Positions 23,376 through 47,399 of a DNA stretch of 64,000 nucleotides are shown piece after piece. The notes under the pieces were generated by a model, which saw only the letters and a list, made by a program, of their open reading frames with translations, had not been told where the DNA came from and made no database searches. The position numbers and the translations under genes were made by a program. Numbering within the stretch: the stretch's first letter is position 1; each line of letters starts with the position of its first letter. The DNA is from Haliea sp. E1-2-M8. Its GTDB lineage: Bacteria; Pseudomonadota; Gammaproteobacteria; Pseudomonadales; Halieaceae. The stretch is from assembly GCF_030649675.1 (NCBI RefSeq), contig NZ_JAUTDR010000009.1, positions 62,001 to 126,000 of the forward strand, read 5' to 3'.

Positions 23376-25475
<2,100 letters not shown>

Positions 25476-25480
25476 GCCCG

Positions 25481-26874: not shown

Positions 26875-26985
26875 TTTTTGACGGTGCGTCACAGCTGGGT
26901 TATCCACTGCAGGCGCTGTATCATGCGACTCCGGGCTGCGGCATAGAGTCGACCCTGACCGTCAATGAACTAGAGAGGTAGACCC

Positions 26986-27926: not shown

Positions 27927-28141
27927 TGTAGGAGCCCGCTCCGCGGGCGATCGCTCACAGAGTGAGCTCCTACAGGTAGGAGCCCGCTGGCCCAGGCCAC
28001 CTTCTCTGTCCGCTACGCGGCCATTCACCTTGTCCGCGGGCGAAAGGCACACGAATCGCTCACAGAGTGAGCTCCCACAGATAGGAGCACGCTCCGCGGG
28101 CGAAAGGCACACGAATCGCTCACGGAGTGCGCTCCCACAGG
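27927..28141. repeat. REP-like palindromic repeat cluster (three units)
   Basis: Three related units lie between the convergent paaX and oxidoreductase genes. Unit 1 (27927-27974) folds as a long stem, TGTAGGAGC pairing with GCTCCTACA, enclosing two small hairpins, CCCGC-TCC-GCGGG and GCTCAC-AGA-GTGAGC. Unit 2 starts at 27975, is interrupted by about 45 unrelated bases and ends at 28080. Unit 3 is 28081-28141. A 48-base block at 28033-28080 recurs at 28093-28140 with two mismatches (period 60). The pattern resembles the TAGGAGC-type extragenic repeats of gammaproteobacteria. Unit 3 overlaps the last codons of the neighbouring gene. Confidence 0.8.
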
Positions 28142-29577
28142 GGTGCCAGCAGCCGGCGCTTGCCATCCTGACTCAGGGCAATACCGGGTTCGTCAAGATC
28201 CTTGCGGTCCCACAGCTCACAGGTGACCTGCTTGTGTTTCTGGTCCAGCCCCTCGCAGTAATTGCTGTAGCGACAGACGATGACCTCGGCACCGTGGCCG
28301 GTCCTGACCTTCTCGAACCAGTCCGGATCCGCCAGGGCCTGGCGTGCGAGACCAATAATATCGGCCTGGCCGCTCTGCAATATGTCCTCTGCGGCCTTGA
28401 AGCCGAAAATGCCCCCCGCCACTACCAACGGCGTCGTCAGGCCGGATGCCCGCAGGTGCTGGCGAATGCTCTCGACCGGGCCTATATTGCGCCCGAAGGG
28501 TCCCTGCTCATCCGAAATGTAACCCGGCATGCACTCGTAGCCGCTCTTGCCGGTGTAGGGGTAAGCGGCCCACCCCACTTTCGGTTGCTTGGCGTCATCG
28601 AACTTGCCGCCCCGTGACAGGGACAGGAAATCCATGCCCGCGTCCGCGAACCGATGGGCGAAATAGCGCGCATCCGCGAGACCGCTGCCGCCCTCAATAA
28701 TCTCGTCACTGAGAAAGCGGCACCCGACCGCAAACTCGGGGCCAGTTGCCTCACGCACGGCCTGATAGACCTCCAGCGGCACCCTGACACGCTGCTCCCG
28801 GCTGCCACCATAACCATCATCGCGAGTATTCGTGGCGGAGAGGAATGACGCCATGGTGTAGGCGTGAGCGTAGTGCAGTTCAACGCCATCGAACCCCGCC
28901 TGCTGTGCTCTGGACGCGGCCCGGGCAAACAGGCCGGGCAGTGTGGCCGGCAATTCCGCGATTGCCGGCACCTGGGTGTCGGTCACCCGCTCCCGGTAGC
29001 CGTACTGCATGTCTTCCCACTCCTTGACGCTGAGCACCGACTGCAGGGCCTCGGGGTCGAGGCTGCGCAGATGTTCGCGCACGCTGTCCTCCGGCGCATC
29101 CTCAAGCTCGAGGGCCCGGCGATGTGCCGGGGTAATCTGCAGAAAGCGGTCGAGAAATTTCTCCGGTTGCGGGCGCCGGCGGATGGTCAGGAAGTCGATG
29201 AGCTGGATCAGCAGCCGGGTCTTGCCGCCGCTGGCCCTGTGCACGGTTTCGGCCAGTTTGGCCAGTCCGGGGATATAGCGATCGTCGCCTATACGCAATA
29301 GCGGACCGCTGGGGACATCCCGGATGCCGGTGGCCTCCACCACGATAACGCCGGGCCTGCCCCGGGCAAAACGTTCATACCACTGCAGGACATCCTCGGT
29401 AACTTCCCCCGCCTCGTTCGAGCGCCAGGGCACCATCGCCGGCACCCAGGTACGCTGCACCAGGCTGAGCGGACCCACCCGCAGCGGAGAGAACAACAGG
29501 CTGGCTGCAGCCTCGCTGCGGTCCGGCCAATCATCTTCAACGGCGGTGTACTTGATTCTCTCGGGCGGCTTCCACAT
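28120..29577 (-). CDS. Old Yellow Enzyme-family NADH:flavin oxidoreductase
   Basis: A 485-residue FMN-dependent TIM-barrel oxidoreductase. Landmarks: GVELHYAHAYTMASFLS (substrate-binding and catalytic His/Tyr region), NTRDDGYGGSREQRVRVPLE, and a C-terminal FMN phosphate site (LVVAGGIFGFKAAED, then IGLARQALADPDW). The start is ATG at 29577, with GGAG about 10 bases upstream; a TTG seven codons earlier lies inside a regulatory palindrome. It resembles the reductase half of the fusion at 30.3 kb and has its own palindromic operator, so it is probably part of the same regulon, reducing an unsaturated ring or enoyl intermediate. The last codons (encoding LWERTP) lie in a repeat unit, so the original 3' end may have been replaced. 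Confidence 0.85.
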   Translation of the reverse strand: MWKPPERIKYTAVEDDWPDRSEAAASLLFSPLRVGPLSLVQRTWVPAMVPWRSNEAGEVTEDVLQWYERFARGRPGVIVVEATGIRDVPSGPLLRIGDDRYIPGLAKLAETVHRASGGKTRLLIQLIDFLTIRRRPQPEKFLDRFLQITPAHRRALELEDAPEDSVREHLRSLDPEALQSVLSVKEWEDMQYGYRERVTDTQVPAIAELPATLPGLFARAASRAQQAGFDGVELHYAHAYTMASFLSATNTRDDGYGGSREQRVRVPLEVYQAVREATGPEFAVGCRFLSDEIIEGGSGLADARYFAHRFADAGMDFLSLSRGGKFDDAKQPKVGWAAYPYTGKSGYECMPGYISDEQGPFGRNIGPVESIRQHLRASGLTTPLVVAGGIFGFKAAEDILQSGQADIIGLARQALADPDWFEKVRTGHGAEVIVCRYSNYCEGLDQKHKQVTCELWDRKDLDEPGIALSQDGKRRLLAPLWERTP

Positions 29578-29601
29578 GCGGCAGGCTCCAGTTTGCAACT
29601 G

Positions 29602-29629
29602 GAAAACATTTTAGGTCTAAAATGTTTTC
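29602..29629. promoter_or_regulatory. 28-bp palindrome, candidate MarR operator 1 (upstream of OYE gene)
   Basis: A 28-base palindrome with a single mismatched pair, at the centre. The core is TTTTAGGTCTAAAA. It lies in the 75-base gap between the marR stop and the start of the oxidoreductase, so it would govern that gene from a promoter separate from marR. The core is shared with three other sites in the window. Confidence 0.6.
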
Positions 29630-29652
29630 GGTGCAAGATCCCCGGTTCGGGC

Positions 29653-30150
29653 TTACTGCGGACCCTGCTTCACCCGGTCCAGCAGGGCCATGAGCTGGTC
29701 CACCTCGCGTGACTCGAGATGCCCCAACAGGCCGATGATCCATTGCTCGTGGCGCAGTGCCATGCGGGCGAAGGCCTTGCGCCCTTTCGGGGTCAGCTTC
29801 ACCATGAAAGTACGCCGGTTGTCCGGCAGCGGGCTGCGATCCACCAGCCCCTCACTTACCAGCTGCGCCGCTATTCCGGAGACATTACCGCCGGAAACCA
29901 TCAGGCGGCGGGACAGCTCCCCCATGGTGAGGCCCTCCGGCACCCGCTCCAGCTGCGCCAGGAAATCGAACCGTGGCAAGGTGGTATCGAATTCCTCGCG
30001 CAAAGCACCGCGCAGGCGTGTTTCAATGAAGCTGGAACAGGTCAGCAAACGCAGCCAGAGCTTGATCGAATGGTGATCATCTTCGTGCAGGCGGGTTTCA
30101 TGATTCAGCCGCGGGGCGCTGCCAGACTCATTGATCACGGTACTGTCCAT
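29653..30150 (-). CDS. MarR-family regulator of the aryl-CoA/indole catabolic region
   Basis: A 165-residue single-domain MarR protein: dimerisation helix KLWLRLLTCSSFIETRLR, helix-turn-helix LTMGELSRRLMVSGGNVSGI, wing PLPDNRRTFMVKLTPKG. Close relatives sit in CoA-dependent aromatic clusters, including those with salicylyl-CoA or aminobenzoyl-CoA monooxygenases, and MarR proteins regulate known auxin-degradation (iac and iad) loci. A palindrome of the shared type abuts its start codon (30150/30151), implying autoregulation, and it is divergent from the monooxygenase operon. The effector is not readable; an aromatic acid or its CoA ester is likely. Confidence 0.88.
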   Translation of the reverse strand: MDSTVINESGSAPRLNHETRLHEDDHHSIKLWLRLLTCSSFIETRLRGALREEFDTTLPRFDFLAQLERVPEGLTMGELSRRLMVSGGNVSGIAAQLVSEGLVDRSPLPDNRRTFMVKLTPKGRKAFARMALRHEQWIIGLLGHLESREVDQLMALLDRVKQGPQ

Positions 30151-30170
30151 ATATTTTAAGCATAAAATGT
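30151..30170. promoter_or_regulatory. Candidate MarR operator 2 (touching the marR start codon)
   Basis: An imperfect 20-base palindrome with core TTTTAAGCATAAAA, immediately upstream of the marR ATG and in the divergent region with the monooxygenase fusion gene. Two mismatched pairs. Same architecture as the sites at 29602 and 40986. Confidence 0.6.
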
Positions 30171-30190
30171 TTGCGCTATACCGGGGATTC

Positions 30191-30206
30191 GCTTTAAGCT
30201 TAAACT
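30191..30206. promoter_or_regulatory. Candidate MarR operator 3 (upstream of monooxygenase operon)
   Basis: A perfect 12-base palindrome TTTAAGCTTAAA (30193-30204) about 60 bases before the start at 30264. It is shorter than the other sites but has the same core spacing and lies on the opposite side of the divergent region from operator 2. Confidence 0.45.
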
Positions 30207-30263
30207 ATTGTCATCAACCTGGCGAGCAATCGCCCCGTTCTCACGAACGAGTTGGAGAGTATT

Positions 30264-32591
30264 ATGAAAATAGTCTGTCTGGGCGGCGGCCCCTCTGGCC
30301 TGTATCTGGCAATCTGCATGAAGCTGCAGGATCCCTCGCATGAGGTCGCGGTGTACGAGCGCAATCGCCCCGATGATACCTTTGGCTGGGGCGTTGTGTT
30401 CTCCGACCAGACTGTCGACAACCTGCTGCAGACCGACCCGGTCAGCGGCCAGCGCATTGTCGAAGAGTTTATCCGCTGGGACATGATCGACTGCCACTTC
30501 AAAGGTCAGGTCCAGCGCTCTGACGGCCACGGTTTTATCGGCCTGGGGCGCAAGCGCATGTTGCAAATGCTGCATGAACGCTGCCACGAACTGGGCGTGG
30601 ACCTGCACTTCGAAACCGAGTTTTCCCCCGAGGACGTCAACACCCGATTCGCCGATGCGGATGTGATCGTGGCCTCCGATGGTCTCAACTCAAAAATCCG
30701 CAACAGCGATCTCGAGACTTTCGAATGCAATATTGATGTGCGCAGCAACAAGTTCGTGTGGCTCGGCACCAAACAGACGTTCCGCGACGCGTTTACCTTT
30801 ATTTTCGAAGAAACTGAACATGGCTGGATCTGGGCTCACGCCTATCAGTTTGACCAGGAAACCTCGACCTTTATCGTCGAATGTAACCCGGATGTCTACG
30901 ACGCCATTGGTTTCGAGCACATGAGTCACGAGGAAAGCGCGGAAACCTGCCGCCGCATCTTTGCCAACTATCTCGATGGTCACAAGCTGCTCACCAACTC
31001 CGCCCACATCCGCGGCTCGGCCTGGATCAACTTCCCTGCGGTTCTCTGCCGCAACTGGGTCAAGGATGATCGCATCGTACTGATCGGGGACGCTGCCCAC
31101 ACGGCGCACTTTTCGATCGGTTCCGGTACCAAGCTGGGGCTGGAAGATGCCATCGCGCTGGCGCAGCATCTGAATTCGGGAGCCCCGGTGCCGGAAGCGT
31201 TGCGCTCCTATCAAGAGGAGCGGGAAGTGGATGCCCTGCGGCTGCAGAACAGCGCCCGCAACGCCATGGTCTGGTTTGAAAACGTACCGCGCTACGCCCG
31301 GGCGCTGGAGCCGAAACAGTTTTTCTACTCCATGCTCACCCGCAGCCAGCGCGTCAGCCACGAAAACCTGCGCCTGCGCGACAAGGCGTGGCTTGAGGAC
31401 ATGGAGAAACACCTCGCCCGCCAGGTCCTGGGCGAGCAATGCGACGAAGCTATCCCGCCGATGTTCCTGCCCTGGGAATTGCGGGACATGAAGCTGATCA
31501 ACCGGGTCGTGGTCTCGCCGATGTCCATGTACAGCGCTGTCGACGGCCTGCCCGATGATTGGCACCTGGTGCACTATGGCAGTCTTGCCAGGGGCGGTGC
31601 CGGACTCATCTACACCGAGATGACTGATGTGTCCGCCGAAGGTCGCATCACCCCCGGCTGCGCCGGTATCTGGAATGATGAGCAGGAGGCAGCCTGGACC
31701 CGGATCGTGAACTTTGTGCACGAGCACACCCAGGCCCGGTTCGCGATGCAGCTGGGCCACGCCGGCCCCAAGGGCGCCACCAAGGAACCCTGGAATTGGG
31801 ATCCGGCCATTCTTGACGAACCCCTGCCCAAAGAACAGCAGTGGCCGCTGCTGTCCGCCAGCGCCCTGCCCTATGACAGCTACAGCCCGGTTCCCGCGGC
31901 CATCAACCGGCAACAGATGGACATGGTCAGGGAACAGTTTGTCGACGCCACCCGGCGCGCCGCCCGCGCGGGCTTTGACATGCTGGAACTGCACGCTGCC
32001 CACGGCTACCTGATTTCCGCGTTCATCACGCCGATTCTGAACAAGCGCGACGATGAGTACGGTGGGAGCCTGGAGAATCGCCTGCGCTACCCGCTGGAAG
32101 TGTTCCGCGCCATGCGCGAGGCGTGGCCCGCCGACAAACCCCTGTCAGTGCGTATTTCTGCCCATGACTGGATGGGTGAAGACGGCAACACCGACGACGA
32201 CGCGGTCGCTATTGCCAGCGCCTTCCGCGACGCCGGGGCGGACATCATTGATGTGTCCAGCGGCCAGGTCTCCCACGCGGCGCAGCCCCTGCCCGGACGC
32301 ATGTTCCAGACCCCCCTTTCCGACCGCATCCGCAACGAAGGCGGGATGGCCACCATGGCGGTGGGCAACATCTACGAACTGGACCACGTCAACAGCATCA
32401 TTGCCGCGGGACGCGCGGACCTGGTGTGCCTGGCACGCCCGCACCTGGCGGACCCGAACTGGACCCTGCGCGCCGCGGCAGACATGGGCTACCGGGGCAC
32501 CGGGGTGGTTGAACCCCACCAGTACTTCCTCGGCTTCCGCCAGCTGCACACCAATCTGCAGCGGGCCCGGGAAGCGGCGCCCCCGCTGTGA
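30264..32591 (+). CDS. Bifunctional aryl-CoA monooxygenase/reductase (2-aminobenzoyl-CoA monooxygenase/reductase or salicylyl-CoA 5-hydroxylase type)
   Basis: A 775-residue fusion. Residues ~1-380 are a flavoprotein monooxygenase (FAD motif [33 protein letters not shown]). Residues ~395-770 are an Old Yellow Enzyme-type reductase ([51 protein letters not shown]). This architecture is that of the Azoarcus 2-aminobenzoyl-CoA monooxygenase/reductase, which hydroxylates and then reduces the ring of anthraniloyl-CoA, and of proteins annotated as salicylyl-CoA 5-hydroxylase. The start is ATG at 30264, with GGAG upstream inside a longer open frame that begins at a TTG. The following SDR overlaps by GTGA. 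The aminobenzoyl-CoA reading is favoured by the isatin-hydrolase and IorAB-type genes nearby; salicylyl-CoA remains an alternative. Confidence 0.88.
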
Positions 32592-33340
32592 AGCACGCCC
32601 TGGTAACCGGGGCAGGCAGCGGCATCGGTGCCGCGACTGCCCGCAGCCTGCTGGATCAGGGGTATCGCGTCAGCCTGCTGGGCCGCCGCCTGGAGGCCCT
32701 CGAGGAAACGGTAGCGGACTACGCGGATGGGCACCACTGCGCTGCCTGCGATGTTACCGACCCGGCGCAGGTCAGCGCCGCATTCAATGCCGCGACCGAC
32801 GCGCTCGGGGCCATCGACATTTTGGTCAACTGCGCCGGGGCGGCACCCACCAGCCCCTTCCACAAAATGCCCGCCGCGCAGTGGCAGCAGGTCATCGACG
32901 TCAACCTGAACGGGGTTTACCACTGTTGCGCCCAGGTGGTTGGCGACATGCGTGAGCGGGGCTGGGGGCGTATCATCAATATCGCCAGCACCGCCTCGCT
33001 GAAAGGCTACGCCTACGTCAGCGCCTACTGTGCGGCCAAGCACGGCGTGCTGGGGCTGACCCGTGCCCTGGCGCTGGAGCTGGCGCAGAAGGGCGTGACG
33101 GTCAATGCCGTTTGCCCCGGCTATACGAATACAGACATCATACGCACTGCCGTTGCCGGAATTGCCGACAAGACCGGACGCACGGAGGCCGAAGCGCTGC
33201 GGACCTTTACCGACACCAATCCCCAGGGTCGCCTGATCGAGCCACAGGAGATCGCTGATACGGTACTCTGGCTGTGCACCGACTCGGCGCGCTCGATCAC
33301 CGGCCAGGCGCTGTCGATCAGCGGCGGCGAAACCGGCTGA
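32588..33340 (+). CDS. SDR oxidoreductase, 3-hydroxyacyl-CoA dehydrogenase-like
   Basis: A 250-residue classical SDR with [11 protein letters not shown] (residues 7-17), NCAGAAP near 83, catalytic Ser in INIASTAS and Y-x3-K in YCAAKHG. GTG start overlapping the stop of the monooxygenase (GTGA). In aminobenzoyl-CoA and related aryl-CoA gene sets an SDR oxidises a 3-hydroxyacyl-CoA formed after ring reduction and hydration; that role is inferred from position between the monooxygenase and an enoyl-CoA hydratase. Confidence 0.88.
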
Positions 33341-33373
33341 GGCCGCAGACTACCCAACCAGACAGGAACCGAC

Positions 33374-34186
33374 ATGCAAACCACGCAACTCGCTGACTAC
33401 AAAGCCACCCACTTTCTGTGGGAAGCCGCCGACGGGGTCGCAACCATTACCCTCAACCGGCCGGAACGCAAGAACCCGCTGACCTTTGATTCCTACGCCG
33501 AACTGCGCGACCTGTTCCGGGCCCTGGTCTACGCCGAGGACATTCACGCGGTGGTAATTCGAGGCTCCGGTGGCAACTTCTGTTCCGGCGGCGATGTCCA
33601 CGAGATCATCGGCCCGCTGACCAAGATGAACATGCAACAGCTGCTGGCTTTCACCCGCATGACCGGGGACCTGGTCAAGGCGATGCGGGCCTGCCGCCAG
33701 CCGGTGATCAGCGCCGTGGAAGGCATTTGTGCCGGCGCCGGCGCGATTATCGCGATGAGCAGCGACCTGCGCTATGCAGCACCGGATGCCAAGGTGGCCT
33801 TTCTCTTCAACCGGGTCGGGCTGGCGGGCTGCGACATGGGCGCCTGCGCCATTTTGCCGCGCATCATCGGCCAGGGTCGCGCCAGCGAACTGCTCTACTC
33901 CGGGCGTTCACTGAAAGCCGACGAGGGGGAACGCTGGGGCTTTTTCAACACCGTCAGCGACGACCCCTTTGGCGCCGCCATGGCCATGGCCCAGGGGATT
34001 ACCCGCGGCCCGACTTTCGCCAACGGCATCACCAAGACCCAGCTGCAGCAGGAATGGAACATGTCCGTGGACCAGGCCATCGAGGCCGAGGCCCAGGCCC
34101 AGGCCCTGTGCATGCAGACCGGCGATTTCGTTCGCGCCTACAACGCCTTCGTGGAGAAAAAGAGCCCGGTGTTCGAGGGCAACTGA
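33374..34186 (+). CDS. Enoyl-CoA hydratase/isomerase family protein
   Basis: A 270-residue crotonase-fold protein. Oxyanion-hole segments are [14 protein letters not shown] and [18 protein letters not shown]. The usual E-x8-E hydratase acid pair is altered in [18 protein letters not shown], where Asp and Cys occupy the region, so it may be a ring hydrolase or isomerase rather than a simple hydratase. GGAA precedes the ATG by about 6 bases. Placed after the SDR, it fits ring-opening or hydration of a cyclic enoyl-CoA. Confidence 0.85.
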
Positions 34187-34197
34187 GGAGATTCACC

Positions 34198-35376
34198 ATG
34201 AGTGACAGCAGCTACCTGCAGTGGCCTTTCCTGGAACCCGCGCATCGGGAGCTGGCGGCGGAGATCGATGCCTGGGCCAGCGCCCGGATCCCGGCGCTGG
34301 TGGCGCGGGAACACGAGGACCTCGACGGCACCTGTATCGGCCTGGTCCGTGCCCTCGGCGAGGCCGGCTTTACCCGCTACGCGGTGCCCGCCAGTGGCGG
34401 CGGCAAACTGGACAAGCTCGATGTCCGCAGCCTCTGCCTGATCCGCGAGACCCTGGGCCGCCATCACGCGCTGGCGGATTTCGCCTTCGCCATGCAGGGC
34501 CTGGGCAGCGGCCCGGTGTCCCTGTTTGGCACCGCAGCCCAGCAACAGCGCTTCCTGCAACCGGTGGCGGCCGGCCAGGCCCTGGCGGCCTTTGCCCTGT
34601 CCGAGGCGGAGGCCGGCTCCGACGTCGCCGCCATGAGCTGCAGCGCCCGCCAGGACGGCGACAGCTACGTGCTCAACGGTGAGAAGACCTGGATTTCCAA
34701 TGGCGGCATCGCCGATTTCTACACGGTGTTCGCCCGCACCGGGGAGGCACCCGGCGCCAAGGGCATCAGCTGCTTCGTGGTACCGGCGGACACCCCCGGG
34801 TTCGAGGTGGTGGAACGGATTGACCTGGTCGCGCCCCATCCCCTCGCCAGCCTGCGCTTCAGTGACTGCCGGGTGCCCGCGGAGAACCGGGTCGGCGAGC
34901 CCGGCCGCGGCTTCGGTATCGCCATGGCGACCCTGGACGTATTCCGCTCCACGGTCGCTGCCGCGGCCCTGGGCATGGCGCGCCGGGCCCTGGATGAAAC
35001 CCTGGCTCATGTCACCACCCGCAAACTGTTTGGCGGCACTCTGAGTGAACTGCAACTGGTGCAGGGCAAGTTGTCGGACATGGCCCTGGCCATCGACAGC
35101 AGCGCCCTGCTGGTCTACCGCTCGGCCTGGACCAAGGACTGCATCGCCGACCGGGTCACCCGGGAAGCGGCCATGGCCAAGCTGCACGCCACCGAGTCGG
35201 CACAGCAGGTCATCGATGCCGCGGTGCAACTGCATGGCGGCAAAGGGGTGACCAAGGGCAATATTGTCGAGTCGCTGTATCGGGATATACGCGCCCTGCG
35301 CATCTACGAGGGCGCCTCCGAGGTACAGCAAACCATTATCGCGCGCCAGGCACTGGCTGCATTCGCCGCTGGCTGA
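34198..35376 (+). CDS. Acyl-CoA dehydrogenase
   Basis: A 392-residue FAD enzyme with full acyl-CoA dehydrogenase architecture: [15 protein letters not shown] (residues ~136-150), [35 protein letters not shown], and the C-terminal [17 protein letters not shown], which carries the catalytic-base position. The start is ATG at 34198 with GAGGAG upstream; the frame is open far upstream but overlaps the hydratase gene. It would introduce an alpha,beta double bond in an alicyclic or dicarboxylic acyl-CoA intermediate. Confidence 0.9.
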
Positions 35377-35491
35377 GGCACGAAGGGTGGCTGATGGACG
35401 GCACCTGAGGGGATAGTTTATGGTAGCGGCGCTGGGTCCTGCGCTGCCACTCGCGAGGCCCGTTCCCACAGCCGCACAGGAAGGCGCCACC

Positions 35492-36440: not shown

Positions 36441-36446
36441 ACGCGC

Positions 36447-40126: not shown

Positions 40127-40133
40127 TGCGCGG

Positions 40134-40925
40134 TCAGCTCCCGGGGACCAGGGCCAGCACCCTGGCCGGGCTGCCTGAGCCCTCGCGAATCTTCAGCGGC
40201 GCCGCGATCAGGATGGCTCCGGTGGGCGGCAGCTGGTCGAGATTGCACAGGCTCGCCAGGCCGCACTTGTTGGCGCCGTGCATGAGATTGTGGCAGGGAA
40301 AGATGGGCTCCTGACTCGAGGCCTGGCCGCAGTCCGTGCCCACGGTCTCGACCCCGACGCCGATGATATCGCGCTCCTCGGCGAGGAATGCCACCGTCGC
40401 CGGCTCCCAGCCGGGGGTGTGGCAGCCATCCCCGTGCTGGTTGAGATATCCCTCAGTGCCGACTTTTTTCGACCAGTCAGTGCGATAAAGAACCCAGGCA
40501 CCAGCAGGAATTTCGCCGTGGCGCGATTCCCAGTCGCGGATGAAATCCACGCTCATGAGGAAATCGGGGTTCGCCTCTGACTCGGCGACCGCGTCGATAA
40601 CCACCGCGGGCGCGACAAAGCGCTCGGGTGGCAGTGTGTCGGTGGCATGGTTCTCGTGATCTTTCCCCGTCACCCAGTGAATGGGCGCGTCAAAGTGGGT
40701 GCCCGTGTGCTCGCCGCAGCGCAGGTTGTTCCAGTACCAGGCCGGGCCCTTTTCGTCGTAGCGGGAGATGGTCTCCATGCTGAAGGGCCAGGACTCGCCC
40801 CAACCGAACTCGGTGGGCAATGGCAGGGTGGGTGTCTCTGGCGAAAGAGTTGCGGTCAAGTCGACAATCCTGACCCCACCGGTCAACAGTGCCGAGGCAA
40901 AATCCTTGAGCAGGTCAGCGGTCAT
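40134..40925 (-). CDS. Cyclase-family metal hydrolase, probable isatin hydrolase
   Basis: A 263-residue protein of the cyclase/kynurenine formamidase family (PF04199 type). The metal motif HTGTHFDAPIHW is at residues 73-84, giving the H-x3-H-x-D-x3-H ligand set seen in isatin hydrolases and KynB-type formamidases. Isatin hydrolase opens the lactam of isatin to isatinate. The length (~260) and the FDAPIHW form fit isatin hydrolase better than KynB (~210 residues). First gene of the minus-strand operon cyclase-iorA-iorB, divergent from the RidA-like operon across a 38-base palindrome. Formamidase activity is the alternative. Confidence 0.75.
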   Translation of the reverse strand: MTADLLKDFASALLTGGVRIVDLTATLSPETPTLPLPTEFGWGESWPFSMETISRYDEKGPAWYWNNLRCGEHTGTHFDAPIHWVTGKDHENHATDTLPPERFVAPAVVIDAVAESEANPDFLMSVDFIRDWESRHGEIPAGAWVLYRTDWSKKVGTEGYLNQHGDGCHTPGWEPATVAFLAEERDIIGVGVETVGTDCGQASSQEPIFPCHNLMHGANKCGLASLCNLDQLPPTGAILIAAPLKIREGSGSPARVLALVPGS

Positions 40926-40985
40926 GAGTCTTCTCCCTGAGGTCTATGCCTGTCGTTTCCAGCCGGCAAAGATACTTGTGTATGT

Positions 40986-41023
40986 GGGTGGATTATATTT
41001 TAGGCTTAAAATATAATCCACCC
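40986..41023. promoter_or_regulatory. 38-bp palindrome, candidate MarR operator 4 (between cyclase and RidA operons)
   Basis: Two perfect 17-base arms (40986-41002 and 41007-41023) flank the centre GGCT. The core, TTTTAGGCTTAAAA, matches the sites at 29602, 30151 and 30191. It is central in the 128-base gap between the divergent cyclase-iorAB and ridA-ligase-Rieske operons, so a single bound dimer could repress both. Confidence 0.65.
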
Positions 41024-41053
41024 CAACGCAGGAAAAATTACGGAGCGCAGGAT

Positions 41054-41446
41054 ATGCACACTACCCTACTGCCCGAGGGCTGGCCAAGACCACGAGGCTA
41101 TGCCAATGGCATACTCGCAAGGGGCACCGACACCATTTATGTAGGCGGACAGATTGGCTGGAACTCGCAGTGCGTATTCGAGACCCACGACTTTATCGGC
41201 CAGGTGAAACAGACGCTGCTGAATGTGTGCGCGATACTGGAATCTGCGGGCGCTGGCCCCGAGCACATCACCCGCATGACCTGGTTCATTACCGACAAGC
41301 AGGCCTATGTCAGCCGCATCGCCGAACTCGGCCCGGTATACCGGGAAGTCATCGGCAAGCACTTCCCGGCGATGAGCGTGGTTGAGGTGTCGGCGCTGAT
41401 AGAAGATGAGGCGATGGTGGAGATCGAGGTAACGGCGGTCAAGTGA
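41054..41446 (+). CDS. RidA-family protein lacking the deaminase arginine
   Basis: A 130-residue Rid/YjgF protein (IYVGGQIGWNSQ, then FIGQVKQTLLNVCAILE). Canonical RidA has P-A-R-S with the arginine that binds the imine acid; here residues 105-108 read P-A-M-S, so Met107 replaces it, as in Rid subfamilies without imine deaminase activity. The start is ATG at 41054, with AGGA just upstream. The stop overlaps the ligase GTG. It is the first gene of the ligase-thiolase-DUF35-SDR-Rieske operon. Rid proteins are frequent in aminoaromatic degradation clusters; the reaction here is unknown. Confidence 0.88.
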   Translation: MHTTLLPEGWPRPRGYANGILARGTDTIYVGGQIGWNSQCVFETHDFIGQVKQTLLNVCAILESAGAGPEHITRMTWFITDKQAYVSRIAELGPVYREVIGKHFPAMSVVEVSALIEDEAMVEIEVTAVK

Positions 41447-43089
41447 GCCAGGGACAGGAACAGCTTGTGAACAGCGTCTACCAGGTTTTTGCGGCAACCG
41501 CCGCCAGCGCGGGTGAAAACCCTTTCCTGCACATACCGCTGCAGGCATCCCGGGCCTACGCCGACGGCCCGGTGGACCTGAGCTATGGAGAGGCACTGGC
41601 GAAGATAGACCGGCTCGCGGCGCATTACCGCGAGGCCGGTTACGGCTACCCGCTGCGGGTCGCGCTGATGCTGGACAACCGGGCCGAGTTCTTCCTCCAC
41701 TGGCTGGCGCTCAACAGCCTCGGCTGCAGCGTGATTCCGGTGAGCAGGGACATGCAGGACGATGAGATCGCCTACTTCCTGAGCCACGGCGAGGCCTGCC
41801 TGCTGGTGGCCCTGCCGGATCTGCTGCCGCGCCTGGAAAGGCTCGGTGCAGGGCTGGACAAACCCGTAGCCGTGGTTGCTTGCGACCGGCCCGATACCCT
41901 GGCCGCGGCCACAGGCGCCGAGGCCGGAGGCGAGCGTCCCGCTGACCTGGAGTGTGCCCTGCTGTATACCTCGGGCAGTACCGGCAAGCCCAAGGCCTGC
42001 ATTCTCAACAACAGCTATTTCCTCTATGCCGGCGAGTGGTACAACGCCCTCGATGGCCTGGTGTCCCTGCGCTACGGCCAGGAGCGGCTGCTGACCCCCC
42101 TGCCCCTCACCCACATGAACGCGATGGCGGTGTCGAGCATGGCGATGATCATGAGCGCCGGCTGCATCGTGCAGCTGGACCGCTTCCACCCCCGGGAATG
42201 GTGGCAGACCGTGCGCGACAGCCGCGCGACTGTCCTGCACTACCTCGGGGTATTGCCCGCCATATTGCTGGAGCTGCCCCCTGCGGCGGAAGATGACTGT
42301 GGCGGCCAGATCCGGTTCGGGTTTGGCGCCGGAGTCAATCCACGCCACCATGCAATCTTCGAGGAGCGTTTCGGCTTTCCCCTGCTGGAAGCCTGGGCAA
42401 TGACTGAATCCGGGGTCGGCGGCAGCATCATTGCCCATCGCGAACCGCGCCATGTCGGCAGCTGCTGTTTTGGCCGGGCCCCGGACGCCCTGGAATACCA
42501 GCTGGTGGACGAAAACAGGCGCCCGGTAGCAATGGGCGAGCCAGGGGAGTTACGGGTGCGCGCTGCGGGGCCGGATCCGCGCCGGGGTTTCTTCTCCGGC
42601 TACCTGAAAAACCCGGAAGCCACCGCTGAAATCTGGCAGGACGGCTGGCTCAATACCGGTGATGTGGTGCGCGAAGGCCCCGATGGCAGCCTCTATTTTG
42701 TCGACCGGCGGAAGAACGTGATCCGCCGCTCCGGGGAGAACATTTCGGCACTGGAAGTTGAAGCGGCCCTGGTGTCGCACCCGGCTATCAGCCAGGTTGT
42801 GGTGACAGCGGTGCCCGACGACCTGCGGGGTGACGAAGTTGCCGCGGCCGTGGTCGTCAATGCACAGGCGGCAGACGCGGACACGCTTGCCGCGGATGTC
42901 GTTCGCCACTGCCTGGAGCAACTGGCCTACTACAAGGCACCGGGCTATGTGCTGCTGTGCGACAGCCTGCCGGTGACTGCCTCCAACAAACCGCGCCGGG
43001 GCGAGATCAAGACCCTGGTCCGCGAACGGGTCGTCGCGGGCGACTGTATCGACACACGCCCTCTCAAGAAGCGCCAGGTGGGGCCATGA
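41443..43089 (+). CDS. AMP-dependent acid-CoA ligase
   Basis: A 548-residue adenylate-forming enzyme of the long ANL type. P-loop LLYTSGSTGKPKACIL (residues ~167-182), AWAMTESGVGG, the adenylate-binding GWLNTGDVV and the hinge DRRKNVIRRSGENIS. The C-terminal Lys in SNKPRRGEIK is at the expected catalytic position. GTG start shared with the RidA-like stop (GTGA). It lies directly before the Cys-less thiolase (ATGA overlap), so it should supply that enzyme with an aryl- or indolyl-acetyl-CoA substrate. The acid is not readable; an oxindole-3-acetic or dioxindole-3-acetic acid is inferred. Confidence 0.88.
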   Translation: MSQGQEQLVNSVYQVFAATAASAGENPFLHIPLQASRAYADGPVDLSYGEALAKIDRLAAHYREAGYGYPLRVALMLDNRAEFFLHWLALNSLGCSVIPVSRDMQDDEIAYFLSHGEACLLVALPDLLPRLERLGAGLDKPVAVVACDRPDTLAAATGAEAGGERPADLECALLYTSGSTGKPKACILNNSYFLYAGEWYNALDGLVSLRYGQERLLTPLPLTHMNAMAVSSMAMIMSAGCIVQLDRFHPREWWQTVRDSRATVLHYLGVLPAILLELPPAAEDDCGGQIRFGFGAGVNPRHHAIFEERFGFPLLEAWAMTESGVGGSIIAHREPRHVGSCCFGRAPDALEYQLVDENRRPVAMGEPGELRVRAAGPDPRRGFFSGYLKNPEATAEIWQDGWLNTGDVVREGPDGSLYFVDRRKNVIRRSGENISALEVEAALVSHPAISQVVVTAVPDDLRGDEVAAAVVVNAQAADADTLAADVVRHCLEQLAYYKAPGYVLLCDSLPVTASNKPRRGEIKTLVRERVVAGDCIDTRPLKKRQVGP

Positions 43090-44270
43090 AGGACTACGCC
43101 GGGGTTGCGCTGACCACACCGGTAAGCTTCGGCTACGCCAGACAGAGCCCACGGGGGGCCGCCTGGTTCATCGGCAGCACCCTGCGGCAGCTGCTGGCAG
43201 AGTCGGGCCTGGGCCCGGATGACATCGATGGACTGGCGGTCTCAAGTTTTTCCCTGGGCGCGGATTCGGCCATCACCCTGACCCAGCACTTGCAGCTGAG
43301 CCCGCGCTGGATCGAGCAAATGCCCTACGGCGGAGCTTCAGGCATCCTGGCCCTGCGCCGCGCCGCCCGCGCGATCCAGGCCGGGGACGCCGAGATCATT
43401 GCCTGCATCGGCGGGGACGGGGCCGCCCACCGCTCTTTCGAGGCTACCGCCGCCAATTTCAGCAATTTCACTATCGACGCGTCCTTTCCCTACGGCGGCG
43501 GCGGCCCCAACGCCGCATTCGCCATGATCACCCAGCGCTATATGGATGACTTCGGTGCCCGCCGCGAGGATTTCGGCGCCATCCCGGTCGCCCAGCGCTA
43601 CAACGCCAACCACTACCCCGCCGCCCTGCTGGGCCACAAGACCCTGACCATGGAGCAGTACCTGGCGGCGCGCCCCATCGCCGCGCCCCTGCATCTGCTG
43701 GACTGTGTCATGCCCTGTGCCGGCGGCGAAGGTTTCCTGATGATGTCGGAGGAGCGAGCCCGCTCCCTGGGCCTGGACTGGTGCAGGATCCTGGCTGCGG
43801 ATGAGCTCCACAACGCGCACCGGGATGATGACATCCAGCTGCGCGGGGGCTGGACGGAATACGCCGATCGGCTCTGGAACCGGGCCGCCCTGGGTCCTAC
43901 CGAAATCGACATGCTGCAGACCTACGACGACTACCCGGTCATCAGCATGTTGCAGATGGAAGATCTCGGCTTTTGCGGCAAGGGCGAAGCGCCCGGCTGG
44001 GTACGGGATACCGACCTGCGCTTCGATGGCAGTGGCCCGCAAACACGCAAGCTGCCGCACAATACCTCCGGGGGCCAGCTCTCCGTAGGCCAGGCGGGTG
44101 CCGCAGCCGGCTACCTCGGCGTGGTGGAGAGCCTGCGCCAGCTGACTGGCAGCGCAGGAGCCAACCAGGTCGCGCAGGCACGCCACGCCATGATCAGCGG
44201 CTTCGGCATGATCAACTATGACCGCGGGCTGTGTTCCGCAGCGGCCATCCTCGGAAGGAGTGAGCGATGA
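43086..44270 (+). CDS. Thiolase-like protein without catalytic Cys (SCP-x/Ltp2-type, probable retro-aldolase subunit)
   Basis: A 394-residue thiolase-fold protein. Against the true thiolase in this window (CGSGMDAIGSAARAI), the equivalent segment reads GASGILALRRAARAI, so Gly83 stands where the nucleophilic Cys should be. The usual GHP-x-G is replaced by VGQAGAAAG, losing the catalytic His, and the C-terminal region is GFGMINYDRG instead of C-x-G-x-G. These losses are the pattern of Ltp2-type proteins, which pair with a DUF35 protein and cleave a beta-hydroxyacyl-CoA by retro-aldol chemistry in steroid side-chain degradation. The DUF35 gene follows with ATGA overlap. Role inferred: cleavage of a 3-hydroxy-3-(acetyl-CoA) oxindole to isatin and acetyl-CoA. 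Confidence 0.8.
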   Translation: MKDYAGVALTTPVSFGYARQSPRGAAWFIGSTLRQLLAESGLGPDDIDGLAVSSFSLGADSAITLTQHLQLSPRWIEQMPYGGASGILALRRAARAIQAGDAEIIACIGGDGAAHRSFEATAANFSNFTIDASFPYGGGGPNAAFAMITQRYMDDFGARREDFGAIPVAQRYNANHYPAALLGHKTLTMEQYLAARPIAAPLHLLDCVMPCAGGEGFLMMSEERARSLGLDWCRILAADELHNAHRDDDIQLRGGWTEYADRLWNRAALGPTEIDMLQTYDDYPVISMLQMEDLGFCGKGEAPGWVRDTDLRFDGSGPQTRKLPHNTSGGQLSVGQAGAAAGYLGVVESLRQLTGSAGANQVAQARHAMISGFGMINYDRGLCSAAAILGRSER

Positions 44271-44836
44271 GTACCACGCCCACCATGCAGAGCCGGCTCA
44301 AGCTGAACCGGCCCTCGCTGCGCAGGCTGGCGCGCCCGCCCAAGCAGCGCACTCCGTTGGGTACCGCTTTCAATGCCGCCAACCTCCCCGTGGCTTTGGC
44401 TCTGCAGCACTGTCGCGACTGCGGCAGCGTGCAGTATCCGCCCCGGGAACTGTGCCGACAGTGCCTGGGAGATGCCCTGGTGTGGCGCCCAACTTCCGGC
44501 AGCGGCCTCTTGGTCAGCAGGATCGAGCTGCACCACAGCCTGTGGGAATACTTCAAGCGGCGCCTGACCGAGAAGCCCTGGCCGGTGGCCAGTGTGCGCC
44601 TGGATTGCGGCGTTATCGCCTTTGCCCACCTGGCGCTCGAAACCTTTGGCTCCAGTTCGCCGGCGATCCTGGCAGCGGATACTCCGGTGCAGGTATTCAC
44701 CCACACCGACTGTTCACTCAATGCGGTGATGATCGCCGTGGCGGCAGAGACCCCCATCGCCAGCCGCAGCCAGCGGCATGCGATCGCCGCCGGGCTCGGC
44801 CTGCTCGAACCCGCCATCAAACCCGAGGGCATCTGA
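44267..44836 (+). CDS. DUF35 (zinc ribbon/OB-fold) protein, partner of the thiolase-like protein
   Basis: A 189-residue protein with a four-Cys rubredoxin-like zinc ribbon at Cys49/Cys52 and Cys63/Cys66 (CRDCG, CRQCL), followed by an OB-fold. The N-terminal ~45 residues are a basic extension. DUF35 proteins bind the thiolase-fold partner and contribute the acyl-CoA site in Ltp2 and ChsH complexes. Its start overlaps the thiolase-like stop by four bases, strong evidence for a stoichiometric complex. Confidence 0.88.
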   Translation: MSTTPTMQSRLKLNRPSLRRLARPPKQRTPLGTAFNAANLPVALALQHCRDCGSVQYPPRELCRQCLGDALVWRPTSGSGLLVSRIELHHSLWEYFKRRLTEKPWPVASVRLDCGVIAFAHLALETFGSSSPAILAADTPVQVFTHTDCSLNAVMIAVAAETPIASRSQRHAIAAGLGLLEPAIKPEGI

Positions 44837-44837
44837 T

Positions 44838-45587
44838 ATGCAGCCTGAGCACAAAACCCCTGCACACAAAACCATAGTGGTCACCGGGGGCAGCACCGGC
44901 ATCGGCGCCGCTATCTGCCACGCCTTTCTCGACGCTGGCTACGAGGTGGTCAACCTGGCCCGCCGCCCGCTGGCACTGGACCACACGCGCCTGCACAACA
45001 TCGAACTGGATCTCAGCGATCGCGCCGCCACCGCCGCGGTGGCGCAGCAGGTGGCCCGGGAGCACGAGGTCACCAGCCTGGTGCACAATGCCGGGCTGAT
45101 CCGCCCCAACCTGCTGCCGGAGGTCAAACTGGAGGACTACGACTATTTGTCCCAGGTGCACATCGGCGCGGCCATCACCCTGAGCCAGGCGTTCCTGCCG
45201 GGCATGCAGGCCCGCCAGTTCGGCCGCATCATCCTCATTACCTCGCGCGCCGCCCTCGGCCTGCAGACCCGCACCAGCTATTCCGCGACCAAATCCGGAA
45301 TGATGGGCATGGCGCGCACCTGGGCCCTGGAGCTGGGGGAATTCGGTATCACCGTCAACACCGTGGCACCGGGGCCCATCAGTGCTACGGAGATGTTCCA
45401 CGAAGTCATCCCCGAAGACAGCCCGAAACTGGACAGCATGGCCCGCAGTATTCCGGTAAGGCGCCTGGGCGTGCCCGGGGATGTCGCCCGCGCCGTCAGC
45501 TTTTTCAACGATCCGGACAATGGTTTCGTGACCGGGCAGACCCTGATGGTCTGCGGCGGCGCCAGCCTGGGCTCATTGTCCCTGTAA
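44838..45587 (+). CDS. SDR oxidoreductase
   Basis: A 249-residue classical SDR: VTGGSTGIGAAI near residue 15, VHNAGLIRPN, catalytic Ser in ILITSRAALG and Y-x3-K in SYSATKSGMMG. The start is ATG at 44838, one base after the DUF35 stop. Between the aldolase pair and the Rieske pair, it could oxidise a hydroxy-oxindole intermediate (for example dioxindole to isatin) or a hydroxylated side chain. The choice is not readable from the sequence. Confidence 0.87.
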   Translation: MQPEHKTPAHKTIVVTGGSTGIGAAICHAFLDAGYEVVNLARRPLALDHTRLHNIELDLSDRAATAAVAQQVAREHEVTSLVHNAGLIRPNLLPEVKLEDYDYLSQVHIGAAITLSQAFLPGMQARQFGRIILITSRAALGLQTRTSYSATKSGMMGMARTWALELGEFGITVNTVAPGPISATEMFHEVIPEDSPKLDSMARSIPVRRLGVPGDVARAVSFFNDPDNGFVTGQTLMVCGGASLGSLSL

Positions 45588-45600
45588 ACGGAGGCACATC

Positions 45601-46923
45601 ATGACCACGCTTATCAGCAAGGAAGAAGTCGCCAGCCTGGTGCGCCCCACCCGGCTGCACAAGCGCCTGTACCTGGACCCGGACGTCTTCGAACTGGAGA
45701 TGGAGCGGATCTGGGGTCAAGCCTGGATCTTCATCGGCCACGAATCCCAGGTGCCCAACCCCGGCGACTTCTTCACCACCAATATCACCCACAAAATTCC
45801 CGTAGTCATGGTGCGCGACAAGGGCGACAGCGTGCACGTGCTGCACAACCGCTGCGGCCACAAGGGCGCCAAACTGGTAGAGAGCCGCCAGGGCAACGTC
45901 CGCGGGGCCTTCCGCTGCCCCTACCACGGCTGGACCTTTCGCCACGACGGCGGCCTGCTGAAGGTTCCCAACGAGAGTGGTTACGACAGTACCGGCTTCG
46001 ACAGCAGCGACCCCTGCTACAGCATGCAGTCCGTGGCCCAGGTCGAAAGCTACCGCGGCTTTGTGTTTGCCACCCTGTCCGCCGAAGCGCCGGACCTGAA
46101 GACCTGGCTCGGGGGCGCCATCGACTGCCTGGACAACCTCTGCGACCGCGCCCCGGAAGGTGAAGTGGAAGTAGCCGGCGGGGTCTTGCGCTACGAGCAC
46201 CAGTGTAACTGGAAGTTCATTCTGGAAAACCTGAACGACACCATGCACCCGATGGTGGTGCACCAGTCCGTGGTTCAGGCGGCGGAGGACTACATCGCCA
46301 CGCTGCCGGAGTCGGCGGTCGAGCAGCGCAGCGAGGCGGAAATCATTCCACCGTTTGGTTCCTCCTACGAAAAGTTCGAGGACTCGGGTATTACCGGGTT
46401 CCGCTACGGCCATCACTACGACGGCGGCAAGACCAGTATTCACGCGGATTACAAGGTGCTCCCCGCCTATCACGACGCCATGGTCAAGGCCTACGGCGAG
46501 GAACGGACCCGCGAGATCTATGCCTTCAATACCCACAACACGCTTTACTATCCCTCGCTGACCATCAAGAGCGCGGTGCAGAACATCCGCGTCGTCCGCC
46601 CCATCGCGGTGGATCGCTTCGTGGTCGAAACCTGGTCCTTCCGTCTCAAGGGCGCGCCGGACGAGATGCTGCAGCGCACCCTGCTCTATTCCCGGCTTAT
46701 CAATTCCTCCTTCGGGATGGTCGGCCCCGACGACCACGAGGTCTACCGGCGGGCGCAGGAGGGGCTGGAGTCCAACGCCAGCGAATGGGTCGAATTTCAT
46801 CGCCAGTACGGACGCGATCAGGTTCTGGAGGACCGCGTCATTGGCGGTGGCACCAGCGACCTGGATATGCGCACCCAGTACAAGGCCTGGCAGGAGTACA
46901 TGACCGGGGAGGTGTTCCAATGA
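45601..46923 (+). CDS. Rieske non-heme iron dioxygenase, alpha subunit
   Basis: A 440-residue ring-hydroxylating oxygenase alpha subunit. The Rieske [2Fe-2S] ligands are Cys85-x-His87 (NRCGHKGA) and Cys106-x2-His109 (RCPYHGW). The mononuclear iron site is Asp213-x2-His216-x4-His221 (NDTMHPMVVH), with a later acidic ligand in GPDDHEVYRRAQ. GGAGG precedes the ATG. The beta subunit overlaps by ATGA. No ferredoxin or reductase gene is adjacent. Two-subunit Rieske enzymes of this size start auxin degradation in iad-type clusters by oxidising the indole ring; the position at the end of the ligase-aldolase operon supports such a role, but other aromatic substrates are possible. Confidence 0.92.
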   Translation: MTTLISKEEVASLVRPTRLHKRLYLDPDVFELEMERIWGQAWIFIGHESQVPNPGDFFTTNITHKIPVVMVRDKGDSVHVLHNRCGHKGAKLVESRQGNVRGAFRCPYHGWTFRHDGGLLKVPNESGYDSTGFDSSDPCYSMQSVAQVESYRGFVFATLSAEAPDLKTWLGGAIDCLDNLCDRAPEGEVEVAGGVLRYEHQCNWKFILENLNDTMHPMVVHQSVVQAAEDYIATLPESAVEQRSEAEIIPPFGSSYEKFEDSGITGFRYGHHYDGGKTSIHADYKVLPAYHDAMVKAYGEERTREIYAFNTHNTLYYPSLTIKSAVQNIRVVRPIAVDRFVVETWSFRLKGAPDEMLQRTLLYSRLINSSFGMVGPDDHEVYRRAQEGLESNASEWVEFHRQYGRDQVLEDRVIGGGTSDLDMRTQYKAWQEYMTGEVFQ

Positions 46924-47399
46924 GCAATCCGGACCTGAAGCAGATCGAGCAATTTCTCTACCGGGAAGCGTCCCTGCTGGATCAACCGGACCTGGACCAA
47001 TGGATGCAGCTGTTCACCGAGGACGGCAGCTACTGGATGCCGGCCATGGAGGGACAGTCCGACCCCCTGAACCACATCTCGCATATCTACGAGGACCGGG
47101 TGATGATGGAGATCCGGCGTCGCAACTTCGTCCACCCCCGCTCCGCCTCGAAAGAGTGGCCAGTTCGCTGTTCACACCTGCTGGGGAATATTCAGCTGCA
47201 GAACCAGACCGACAGCGGAGACCTGGTAGTGACCTGCAATTTTCACGTCATCGTGTGGTATCGCGAGGAGCAGCGCGTTTATGCGGGAACCTGCGAGCAC
47301 CATCTGCTCGCCGAGGGCGATGACTACCGCATTCGCCACAAGCGAGTGGACTTGATCAACCCGGAGGCAGCCCAGCGGTCGATGGTTATCTACCTGTAG
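46920..47399 (+). CDS. Rieske dioxygenase beta subunit
   Basis: A 159-residue NTF2-like small subunit (EQFLYREASLLDQPDLDQWM; CSHLLGNIQL; ending RSMVIYL). It shapes the alpha3beta3 oxygenase. The start is ATG at 46920 (ATGA overlap with alpha). The C-terminal motif ending SMVIYL is repeated as a detached fragment at 50.0 kb, showing that a second beta-subunit gene once existed or was brought in. Confidence 0.92.
   Translation: MSNPDLKQIEQFLYREASLLDQPDLDQWMQLFTEDGSYWMPAMEGQSDPLNHISHIYEDRVMMEIRRRNFVHPRSASKEWPVRCSHLLGNIQLQNQTDSGDLVVTCNFHVIVWYREEQRVYAGTCEHHLLAEGDDYRIRHKRVDLINPEAAQRSMVIYL

Follow-up and report, generated by a model that had tools for sequence, protein, structure and literature searches.

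The window analysed here is a stretch of 64,000 nucleotides on a 182-kb contig of Haliea sp. E1-2-M8 (genome of 4.84 Mb in 94 contigs, 98.8% complete), which belongs to the Halieaceae, a family better known from the sea. At positions 28120-47399 it carries an iad-type indole-3-acetate (IAA) locus joined to an abm-type operon, that is, one for 2-aminobenzoyl-coenzyme A (2-aminobenzoyl-CoA). The genes lie in four blocks. The first runs leftwards and holds the genes of an old yellow enzyme (OYE)-family protein and a MarR regulator. The second runs rightwards with a 2-aminobenzoyl-CoA monooxygenase/reductase-type fusion (ABMR), a short-chain dehydrogenase/reductase (SDR), a crotonase, an acyl-CoA dehydrogenase (ACAD) and two MaoC-family proteins. 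The third runs leftwards (isatin hydrolase, IorA, IorB), and the fourth rightwards in the order RidA, ligase, thiolase, DUF35, SDR, Rieske alpha, Rieske beta. Two promoters are divergent (30151-30263 and 40926-41053), and at a single convergent junction (36440/36447) the second MaoC gene and IorB end tail to tail. This layout agrees with the original prediction, which had described two divergent blocks and one convergent block, and every gene it named was found as an open frame in its place with family support. The RidA gene heading the Rieske operon, the OYE-type flavoprotein with an operator-like site and the lack of an IadC match in the cluster (E 1e-5) are additions to that prediction. In our judgement the cluster is probably one regulon for the aerobic degradation of IAA, with the carbon staying bound to CoA from the removal of the side chain until the ring is opened.

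The upper half is best recognized by its Rieske oxygenase, whose alpha (IadD type, 45601-46923) and beta (IadE type, 46920-47399) subunits are encoded at the end of the fourth block on the plus strand. The alpha subunit has two PDB matches at E < 1e-100, both of them Variovorax IadD (9o71, E = 9.5e-138; 7yls, E = 2.2e-137), and the best PDB match of the beta subunit is found in the same Variovorax IadDE entries (7yls_A, E = 9.6e-28). Published data used here and below come from open-licence papers (PMC12633357, PMC9613470, PMC10374108, PMC12329534, PMC6117287, PMC3788728, PMC3534580, PMC6221969, PMC9007349, PMC8383072), and they place Asn210, Leu211, His216, His221, Phe251, His311, Lys322, Arg329 and Tyr362 in the IAA pocket of Variovorax IadD, with Asp377 as an iron ligand. 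All 10 residues are identical in the window protein. Among 83 Rieske alpha homologues, nine of the ten positions are invariant, and position 211 is Leu in 32 and Gln in 51. The homologue sets used below for the motif counts of the thiolase-fold protein (YDDY), isatin hydrolase and IorA hold matches covering at least 85% in one piece, with some genomes present twice, and the tallies rest on the eight commonest variants per motif (for example, 93/101 for the GGASG stretch). Five other Rieske proteins of the Haliea genome, those that could be aligned from eight other loci tried (the genome had 13 Rieske matches), share Asn210, His216 and His221 but not the full set; one of them also has Phe251 and Asp377. 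The enzyme was also considered as an anthranilate or benzoate dioxygenase and rejected as such, the NCBIfam models being far below cut-off against about 1e-137 for the IadD match.

The other genes of this block, all on the plus strand, encode a RidA-family enamine/imine hydrolase (41054-41446, PF01042), an AMP-forming acyl-CoA ligase (IadF type, 41443-43089, PF00501/PF13193, syntenic with Roseibium and Ruegeria), a thiolase-fold protein (IadG type, 43086-44270), its DUF35 partner (44267-44836) and an SDR dehydrogenase (IadJ type, 44838-45587) that is 56% identical to the last SDR of a Roseibium iad-type locus. The ligase, thiolase, DUF35, SDR and isatin hydrolase genes occur in similar order in Roseibium, Ruegeria, Achromobacter and Aromatoleum. 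A role of the upper genes in IAA catabolism thus appears well supported by homology, and the IAA assignment of the original prediction stands on the IadDE match and the pocket. Alternatively, the pathway might start from an indole acid close to IAA (halogenated IAA, indole-propionate or an oxindole acid) and be unchanged in its later steps. The Rieske alpha is well diverged from Variovorax IadD, some family genomes have a different Rieske clade (44-46%) or none at the limit used, and the regulator is not IadR. However, the identity of all nine reported pocket residues and the iad-locus types of the ligase, thiolase, DUF35 and SDR genes make such a substrate improbable.

The second Rieske clade, 44-46% identical to the window protein, was seen in G075, G077, G079, G081, G095, G096 and G104, and some of these seven genomes also carry IorA and ABMR. 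In addition, Parahaliea (G035, L174, about 5193-11200; G140 appears to be the same genome) and G010 (L214, 10804-17160) have an upper operon whose stretch holds no isatin hydrolase, IorAB or ABMR.

The thiolase-like protein has Gly-Gly at the place of the nucleophilic Cys in 17/17 aligned sequences, and a YDDY motif is present in 101/101 homologues. Its best sequence match is 9myr, the Sal-Shy(DUF35) retro-aldolase, followed by Ltp2 (6ok1); the fold search with the predicted model (pLDDT 78.5, pTM 0.86) also ranks Sal and Ltp2 first. The DUF35 partner has a CxxC-x10-CxxC ribbon and matches PF12172 (zf-ChsH2), with the OB-fold model PF01796 below cut-off. The Tyr of YDxx is the published catalytic base in Sal and Ltp2. 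Thus the features of a retro-aldolase are present, namely the lack of a nucleophilic Cys, the YDxx Tyr, the DUF35 partner and the fold. The catalytic acid of Sal (Cys304) or Ltp2 (Tyr344) is not kept: Asp stands at the Sal Cys place, and the Ltp2 Tyr344 stretch is gapped with no Tyr aligned. We therefore liken the protein to a retro-aldolase and do not call it Sal or Ltp2. The thiolase-fold and DUF35 pair would cleave by a retro-aldol reaction, and since dioxindole-3-acetyl-CoA is a beta-hydroxyacyl-CoA, the products would be isatin and acetyl-CoA. Among 80 named iad-type loci, an IadH-like DUF35-SDR protein (bit score > 150) was found in 0/16 of the first, gammaproteobacterial loci against 55/64 of the others; this count and that of IadC below cover flanks no longer than 10 kb, some of them shortened where a contig ends.

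Isatin hydrolase (40134-40925), IorA (37940-40126) and IorB (36447-37943) are encoded by abutting genes on the minus strand. The isatin hydrolase matches solved enzymes (5nmp, E = 2e-102; 5nna; 4j0n) and carries the two published signatures, HxG[T/A]HxDxPxH and GLQC/GLAS, which supports the isatin-hydrolase-type cyclase of the original prediction; the metal motif HxGTHxDxPxH is found in 90/90 homologues and GLQC or GLAS in 88/90. IorA (IadA type) has a thiamine pyrophosphate (TPP) domain and iron-sulfur (Fe-S) motifs, with GDGGF in 65/65 homologues and CVGCGxCG in 63/65. IorB (IadB type) has a POR gamma domain and DUF6537 (NF006179, 585 bits, cut-off 348). All parts of a 2-oxoacid:ferredoxin oxidoreductase of the IOR type are therefore present: the TPP domain, the gamma domain and the Fe-S motifs. 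IorAB is a predicted TPP-dependent 2-oxoacid:ferredoxin oxidoreductase that forms a subclass by itself. Isatinate belongs to the aryl 2-oxo acids and, as we read the proposed route, is the only 2-oxo acid on it.

IadA and IadB have been called exclusive markers of iad-like operons, and their counterparts IorA and IorB are both present here. In Bradyrhizobium, iorB and iorA were induced 7.6- and 30.7-fold by IAA. A Variovorax deletion strain lacks genes 77-53, including iadA (gene 72) and, by its place, iadB; according to a preprint, overexpression of iadC-K2 in the deletion background led to strong accumulation of C8H7NO3 and C7H7NO, whose formulas we read as those of isatinate and aminobenzaldehyde. 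In the open-licence papers searched, we found no reaction assigned to IadAB or IorAB, isatinate oxidation included. Our best reading is that IorAB, proposed as the alpha and beta subunits of an isatinate:ferredoxin oxidoreductase, would convert isatinate into anthraniloyl-CoA and so join the two halves without free anthranilate.

The lower operon lies on the plus strand. ABMR (30264-32591) is a FAD-monooxygenase/OYE fusion (NF006101, 1217 bits, cut-off 1078), followed by the SDR (32588-33340, PF00106), a crotonase of the PRK08258 type (33374-34186; NF006107, 475 bits, cut-off 330), the ACAD (34198-35376, PF00441/02770/02771) and the MaoC-family proteins 1 (35492-35953, PF01575) and 2 (35943-36440, PF13452 over cut-off and PF01575 just below). 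Identities to the abm clusters of A. evansii KB740 are 57-58% for ABMR (both copies), 55-56% for the SDR, 62-63% for the crotonase, 61-62% for the ACAD, 53-57% for RidA and 53-55% for MarR. The biochemistry of these clusters was reportedly worked out by Schuhle in 2001. It is cited in PMC3534580 and PMC6221969, and ABMR is described as acting on a CoA thioester, anthraniloyl-CoA. The lower part would thus be an abm-type pathway (ABMR with SDR, crotonase and ACAD) by orthology to A. evansii, and the aminobenzoyl-CoA fusion and lower genes of the original prediction are confirmed at this level.

The fusion also exceeds the cut-off of the NCBIfam family named for salicylyl-CoA 5-hydroxylase (NF006101), in which case the lower operon would serve salicylate via gentisate; the original prediction had itself named salicylate as a possible refutation. 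This explanation is disfavoured and, to our mind, hardly credible. No gentisate 1,2-dioxygenase exceeded the cut-off in the Haliea genome (best 28 bits, cut-off 442), and the SDR, crotonase and ACAD are abm orthologues in an abm-type operon. Furthermore, the product name 'salicylyl-CoA 5-hydroxylase' given by NCBI is a poor guide, being also on a gene of the Arthrobacter Rue61a plasmid that adjoins a proven anthranilate-CoA ligase. Streptomyces-type plasmid matches were unannotated and gave no salicylate reference.

An orthologue of 2-aminobenzoate-CoA ligase was not found in the Haliea genome (nothing at E 1e-90; 20/30 candidates scored). The query is 53% identical to the Rue61a plasmid anthranilate-CoA ligase, whose activity is published as proven. 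Likewise, none of the 32 candidates, all of them scored, exceeded the cut-off of the benzoate-CoA-ligase-family models. The nearest homologue, on C6, is 31-35% identical to known ligases. We therefore call the lower pathway abm-type but fed differently. As a side observation, one of the two A. evansii KB740 abm clusters (L162-L163, G158 C264) is separated by about 4 kb from an iad locus that includes IorAB, which may explain why this strain has two.

The MarR gene (29653-30150, minus strand, PF12802/PF01047) was also considered as IadR and rejected, with E = 8e-4 to Variovorax IadR (7kfo) against 53-55% identity to the A. evansii abm MarRs. Because the cluster has no IadR and an abm-type MarR instead, it is filed as a variant of the iad kind rather than a plain iad locus; on this point the original prediction, which had cited the MarR control of iad-type loci, is corrected. 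A palindrome, TATTTTA-N4-TAAAATA, is present at both divergent promoters. In the MarR/ABMR promoter it reads ATATTTTAAGCATAAAATGT (30151-30170), with a weaker copy at 30190-30207. In the isatin hydrolase/RidA promoter the core operator ATATTTTAGGCTTAAAATAT (40995-41014) lies within a 36-nt palindrome (40987-41022) of two perfect 16-nt arms. Allowing at most two mismatches, the window form is found nowhere else in the 4.84-Mb genome (reversed control 0). With at most three mismatches there are 7 matches at 4 places in the window (expected 0.02), including CATTTTAGGTCTAAAATG (29607-29624, 3 mismatches) before the OYE gene. This gene encodes an OYE-family flavin mononucleotide (FMN) oxidoreductase (28120-29577, minus strand, PF00724; ATG 29577 was chosen, the frame opening at 29598) and is found in many of the family stretches mapped.

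Every one of the 20 family-type cluster stretches searched has one or more operator-like sites (at least 12 of 14 fixed bases). Both A. evansii copies, Alcaligenes, two Rhizobium and Zoogloeaceae likewise have sites matching 12-13 of 14 bases ahead of ABMR or the abm MarR. Some sites in other genomes lie away from the promoters named, and the chance expectation was computed for the window. The iad stretches of Roseibium and Ruegeria and the separate Rieske stretch of G081 showed no such site. In Parahaliea (G035), a site precedes the ligase gene although the upper operon lacks IorAB and ABMR in the stretch. The presence of one palindrome at both divergent promoters, its only two places in the genome with at most two mismatches, makes the halves look like a single regulon under the abm-type MarR. 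We read this as the auxin genes having been taken over by the lower-pathway regulator. With this MarR controlling both halves, induction would more likely respond to anthraniloyl-CoA, or to some other late CoA ester, than to IAA.

Most of the cluster is syntenic in the family genomes G023 (of the same genus), G054, G135 and G051, and also in G053, but without MaoC and OYE matches in the stretch compared. Of the 18 family genomes picked by the Rieske gene that have both ABMR and IorA, 12 carry the two no more than 20 kb apart and the other six on different contigs; these and the following linkage counts were made by hand. The linkage and the synteny in relatives argue that the gene order is not due to chance. 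Other genomes were drawn from 50 of the 80 named iad-type loci; G142 and G145, whose places coincide with those of G101 and G051, were left out of the 45 other genomes. In other taxa the iad and abm parts stand under their own MarR regulators, and they are more than 20 kb apart or unlinked in 27/45 of these genomes, as would be expected if two unrelated pathways lay side by side by accident. However, they are within 20 kb in the other 18/45, and the two divergent promoters of the Haliea cluster share one operator, so an accident is very hard to accept.

The co-occurrence of IorA and ABMR was counted in 140 family genomes searched regardless of iad genes. Both were present in 29, IorA only in 2 (79-80% complete), ABMR only in 3 (68-74% complete) and neither in 106 (Fisher value 2.5e-24). 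In the 78 best family genomes, the IorA set and the ABMR set are identical, with 15 genomes each. In addition, 71 genome handles with iad-type genes were surveyed for the abm-type ligase; they still include G145 beside G051 and thus stand for 70 distinct genomes. The ligase is present in 39 at an identity of at least 52%, and one more has only a 37% match. All 24 distinct ABMR genomes without such a ligase, in which the duplicate is counted once, have IorA: 18 belong to the same family, and the others are G141, G143, G144, G146, G152 and G154. For instance, the ligase-less arrangement of abm and iad genes is found outside the family in G146 (Zoogloeaceae) and G154 (an alphaproteobacterial metagenome-assembled genome).

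The lower unit also occurs without a close auxin oxygenase, since 11 of the 29 family genomes with IorA and ABMR have no IadD relative at 74% identity or more; some have one at 44-45%. Among the mapped genomes without a close IadD, isatin hydrolase stands beside IorAB in G061, G093, G094, G079 and G081. G065 and G086 have a 48-49% homologue inside the abm operon, and the G096 stretch ends too early. The stretches L195-L202 (G061, G093, G065, G094, G086) hold IorAB/ABMR and an isatin hydrolase homologue with no IadD match at E 1e-60. Operator-like sites in G061 also directly precede a gene for a luciferase-like monooxygenase (L196:3818) and one for an acyl-CoA dehydrogenase (L196:9773), and frames for a TonB receptor and a GMC oxidoreductase lie between the two; these genes are perhaps another way into isatin.

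Several observations weigh against a single CoA-bound route through IorAB. As to the upper half, no IadC-type reductase matched in the cluster; the best match elsewhere in the genome is 36% identical, on contig C50, which carries another Rieske gene. IadC was found in 0/16 of the first loci (gammaproteobacterial by title) against 42/64 of the others, which are mostly alpha- and betaproteobacterial. Since the cluster has no IadC and IadC was reported as dispensable for IAA degradation in Variovorax, another reductase presumably serves the Rieske enzyme. Many true thiolases nearly match Sal and Ltp2 by fold (TM 0.77-0.81), and a 2025 Variovorax preprint reads IadG as a ketothiolase, with C8H7NO2, the formula of dioxindole, and not isatin after the IadFGH steps; this compound could stem from reduction of isatin. 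IorA scores 279 bits against a cut-off of 651 for curated IOR_alpha (TIGR03336, E = 7e-83), and for this reason we do not file it as an indolepyruvate enzyme. It has no PDB relative by phmmer, and its predicted model (pLDDT 46) is too poor for a fold search. The Fisher value overstates independence, because the family genomes are related. The ABMR match is distant in two of the 24 ligase-less genomes (G144, 47%; G154, 45%), and a stop or a broken frame interrupts some copies of ABMR or IorA. The search for operator-like sites gave nothing in the abm stretches of Comamonas and Paroceanicella, nor in Arhodomonas or G154. The idea that IorA replaces the ligase in all genomes is ruled out, since all 39 ligase genomes also have an IorA match, and the C6 homologue could have anthranilate-CoA ligase activity. 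Furthermore, iadC-K2 restores anthranilic acid in Variovorax even when iadAB are missing, which means that free anthranilate can form in that organism.

The C6 homologue and the Variovorax result would suit the published iad route to free anthranilate, followed by re-activation by a non-orthologous ligase, with IorAB acting on another 2-oxo acid such as indolepyruvate or, beside paa (phenylacetate) genes, phenylglyoxylate. Anthranilic acid is the reported Variovorax end product even without iadAB, the family is named IOR, and paa genes are next door. On the other hand, the presence of IorA follows that of ABMR across the family, and its gene adjoins that of isatin hydrolase on the same strand. 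Genomes with the isatin hydrolase/IorAB/ABMR part and no IadDE match exist as well, which ties IorAB to isatin and not to the making of IAA. We regard this route as unlikely, though it has a little more in its favour than the other alternatives, and we prefer the one in which IorAB forms anthraniloyl-CoA.

On the preferred route, the IadDE-type Rieske enzyme would oxidize the indole ring of IAA and the IadJ-type SDR would complete the conversion to dioxindole-3-acetate, as reported for Variovorax and proposed here by homology. The IadF-type ligase would likewise give dioxindole-3-acetyl-CoA, which the Cys-less thiolase-fold protein with DUF35 may split by a retro-aldol cut to isatin and acetyl-CoA. 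Isatin hydrolase, on strong homology, would open isatin to isatinate. The key step is that of IorAB, which may turn isatinate and CoA into anthraniloyl-CoA, CO2 and reduced ferredoxin. ABMR would then monooxygenate and reduce the ring, in line with its A. evansii orthologues. RidA would remove the enamine nitrogen, and the SDR, crotonase, ACAD and MaoC proteins would lead to central metabolism, probably in some such order. The abm-type MarR would govern both halves. Like the operator control, these enzymatic roles are deduced from the proteins' sequences. The cluster would not end at anthraniloyl-CoA, as the original prediction had it, but go on to ring reduction and beta-oxidation-like steps; its claim that no free anthranilate is released fits the missing ligase and the co-occurrence of IorA and ABMR, and may well hold.

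The cluster is adjoined by paa genes at 15010-27915 (PaaE, PaaC, 3-oxoadipyl-CoA thiolase, PaaG, PaaZ, FadB/FadJ-like, PaaK and PaaX), whose thiolase and FadB-like enzymes could finish the lower auxin pathway. Directly after the Rieske operon lies a gene for a pyrroloquinoline quinone (PQQ)-dependent alcohol dehydrogenase with a cytochrome domain (47487-49610). It was left out of the cluster because it lacks an operator-like site and only 2/80 loci have a match to it near the thiolase. An open frame at 51671-53344 looks P450-like by eye, with no NCBIfam family at E 1e-60.

If the preferred route is true, aerobic auxin breakdown is joined to a CoA-based anthranilate pathway, some iad bacteria need not release anthranilate, and auxin catabolism and its control have been rewired in Halieaceae. 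It would also give a job to iadAB, the marker pair of iad loci. With less confidence than for the Haliea cluster itself, we lean towards the view that IadAB of iad loci generally would be an isatinate:ferredoxin oxidoreductase forming anthraniloyl-CoA, coupled to the YDDY retro-aldolase, that the Halieaceae auxin pathway was captured by the regulator of its lower half and is switched on via a late CoA intermediate, and that isatin hydrolase/IorAB/ABMR is a portable unit open to supply from other indole pathways. The iad kind is already known; the combination, the control and the IorAB assignment are new within the open-licence literature searched here.

Compared with known systems, the Haliea cluster has IorAB (IadAB), IadDE, IadF, IadG, IadI, IadJ and the IAA pocket in common with the iad locus of Variovorax paradoxus CL14 and Bradyrhizobium. 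However, it has no IadC or IadR, its DUF35 is a separate gene rather than an IadH-like DUF35-SDR, and it is joined to abm genes. The isatin hydrolases of Labrenzia and Ralstonia (5nna, 5nmp, 4j0n) share the metal motif and GLAS/GLQC with the Haliea enzyme, and no difference was seen. Ltp2-ChsH2(DUF35) and Sal-Shy(DUF35) likewise combine a thiolase fold without nucleophilic Cys, a DUF35 partner and the YDxx Tyr; they have YDHF or YDCY and a steroid substrate, whereas the Haliea protein, known here from its sequence, has YDDY and a proposed indole substrate. The anaerobic iaa pathway of Aromatoleum, whose genes are described as highly divergent (PMC9613470), ends at the same 2-aminobenzoyl-CoA, whereas the Haliea route would depend on an oxygenase and uses iad-type genes. 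Finally, the A. evansii KB740 abm clusters share ABMR, SDR, crotonase, ACAD, RidA and MarR (53-63%) and have, ahead of both ABMR copies, an operator that agrees in 12 of 14 bases. In contrast to them, the Haliea cluster has two MaoC genes and an OYE gene in addition and no 2-aminobenzoate-CoA ligase, and its CoA ester is proposed to come from IorAB.

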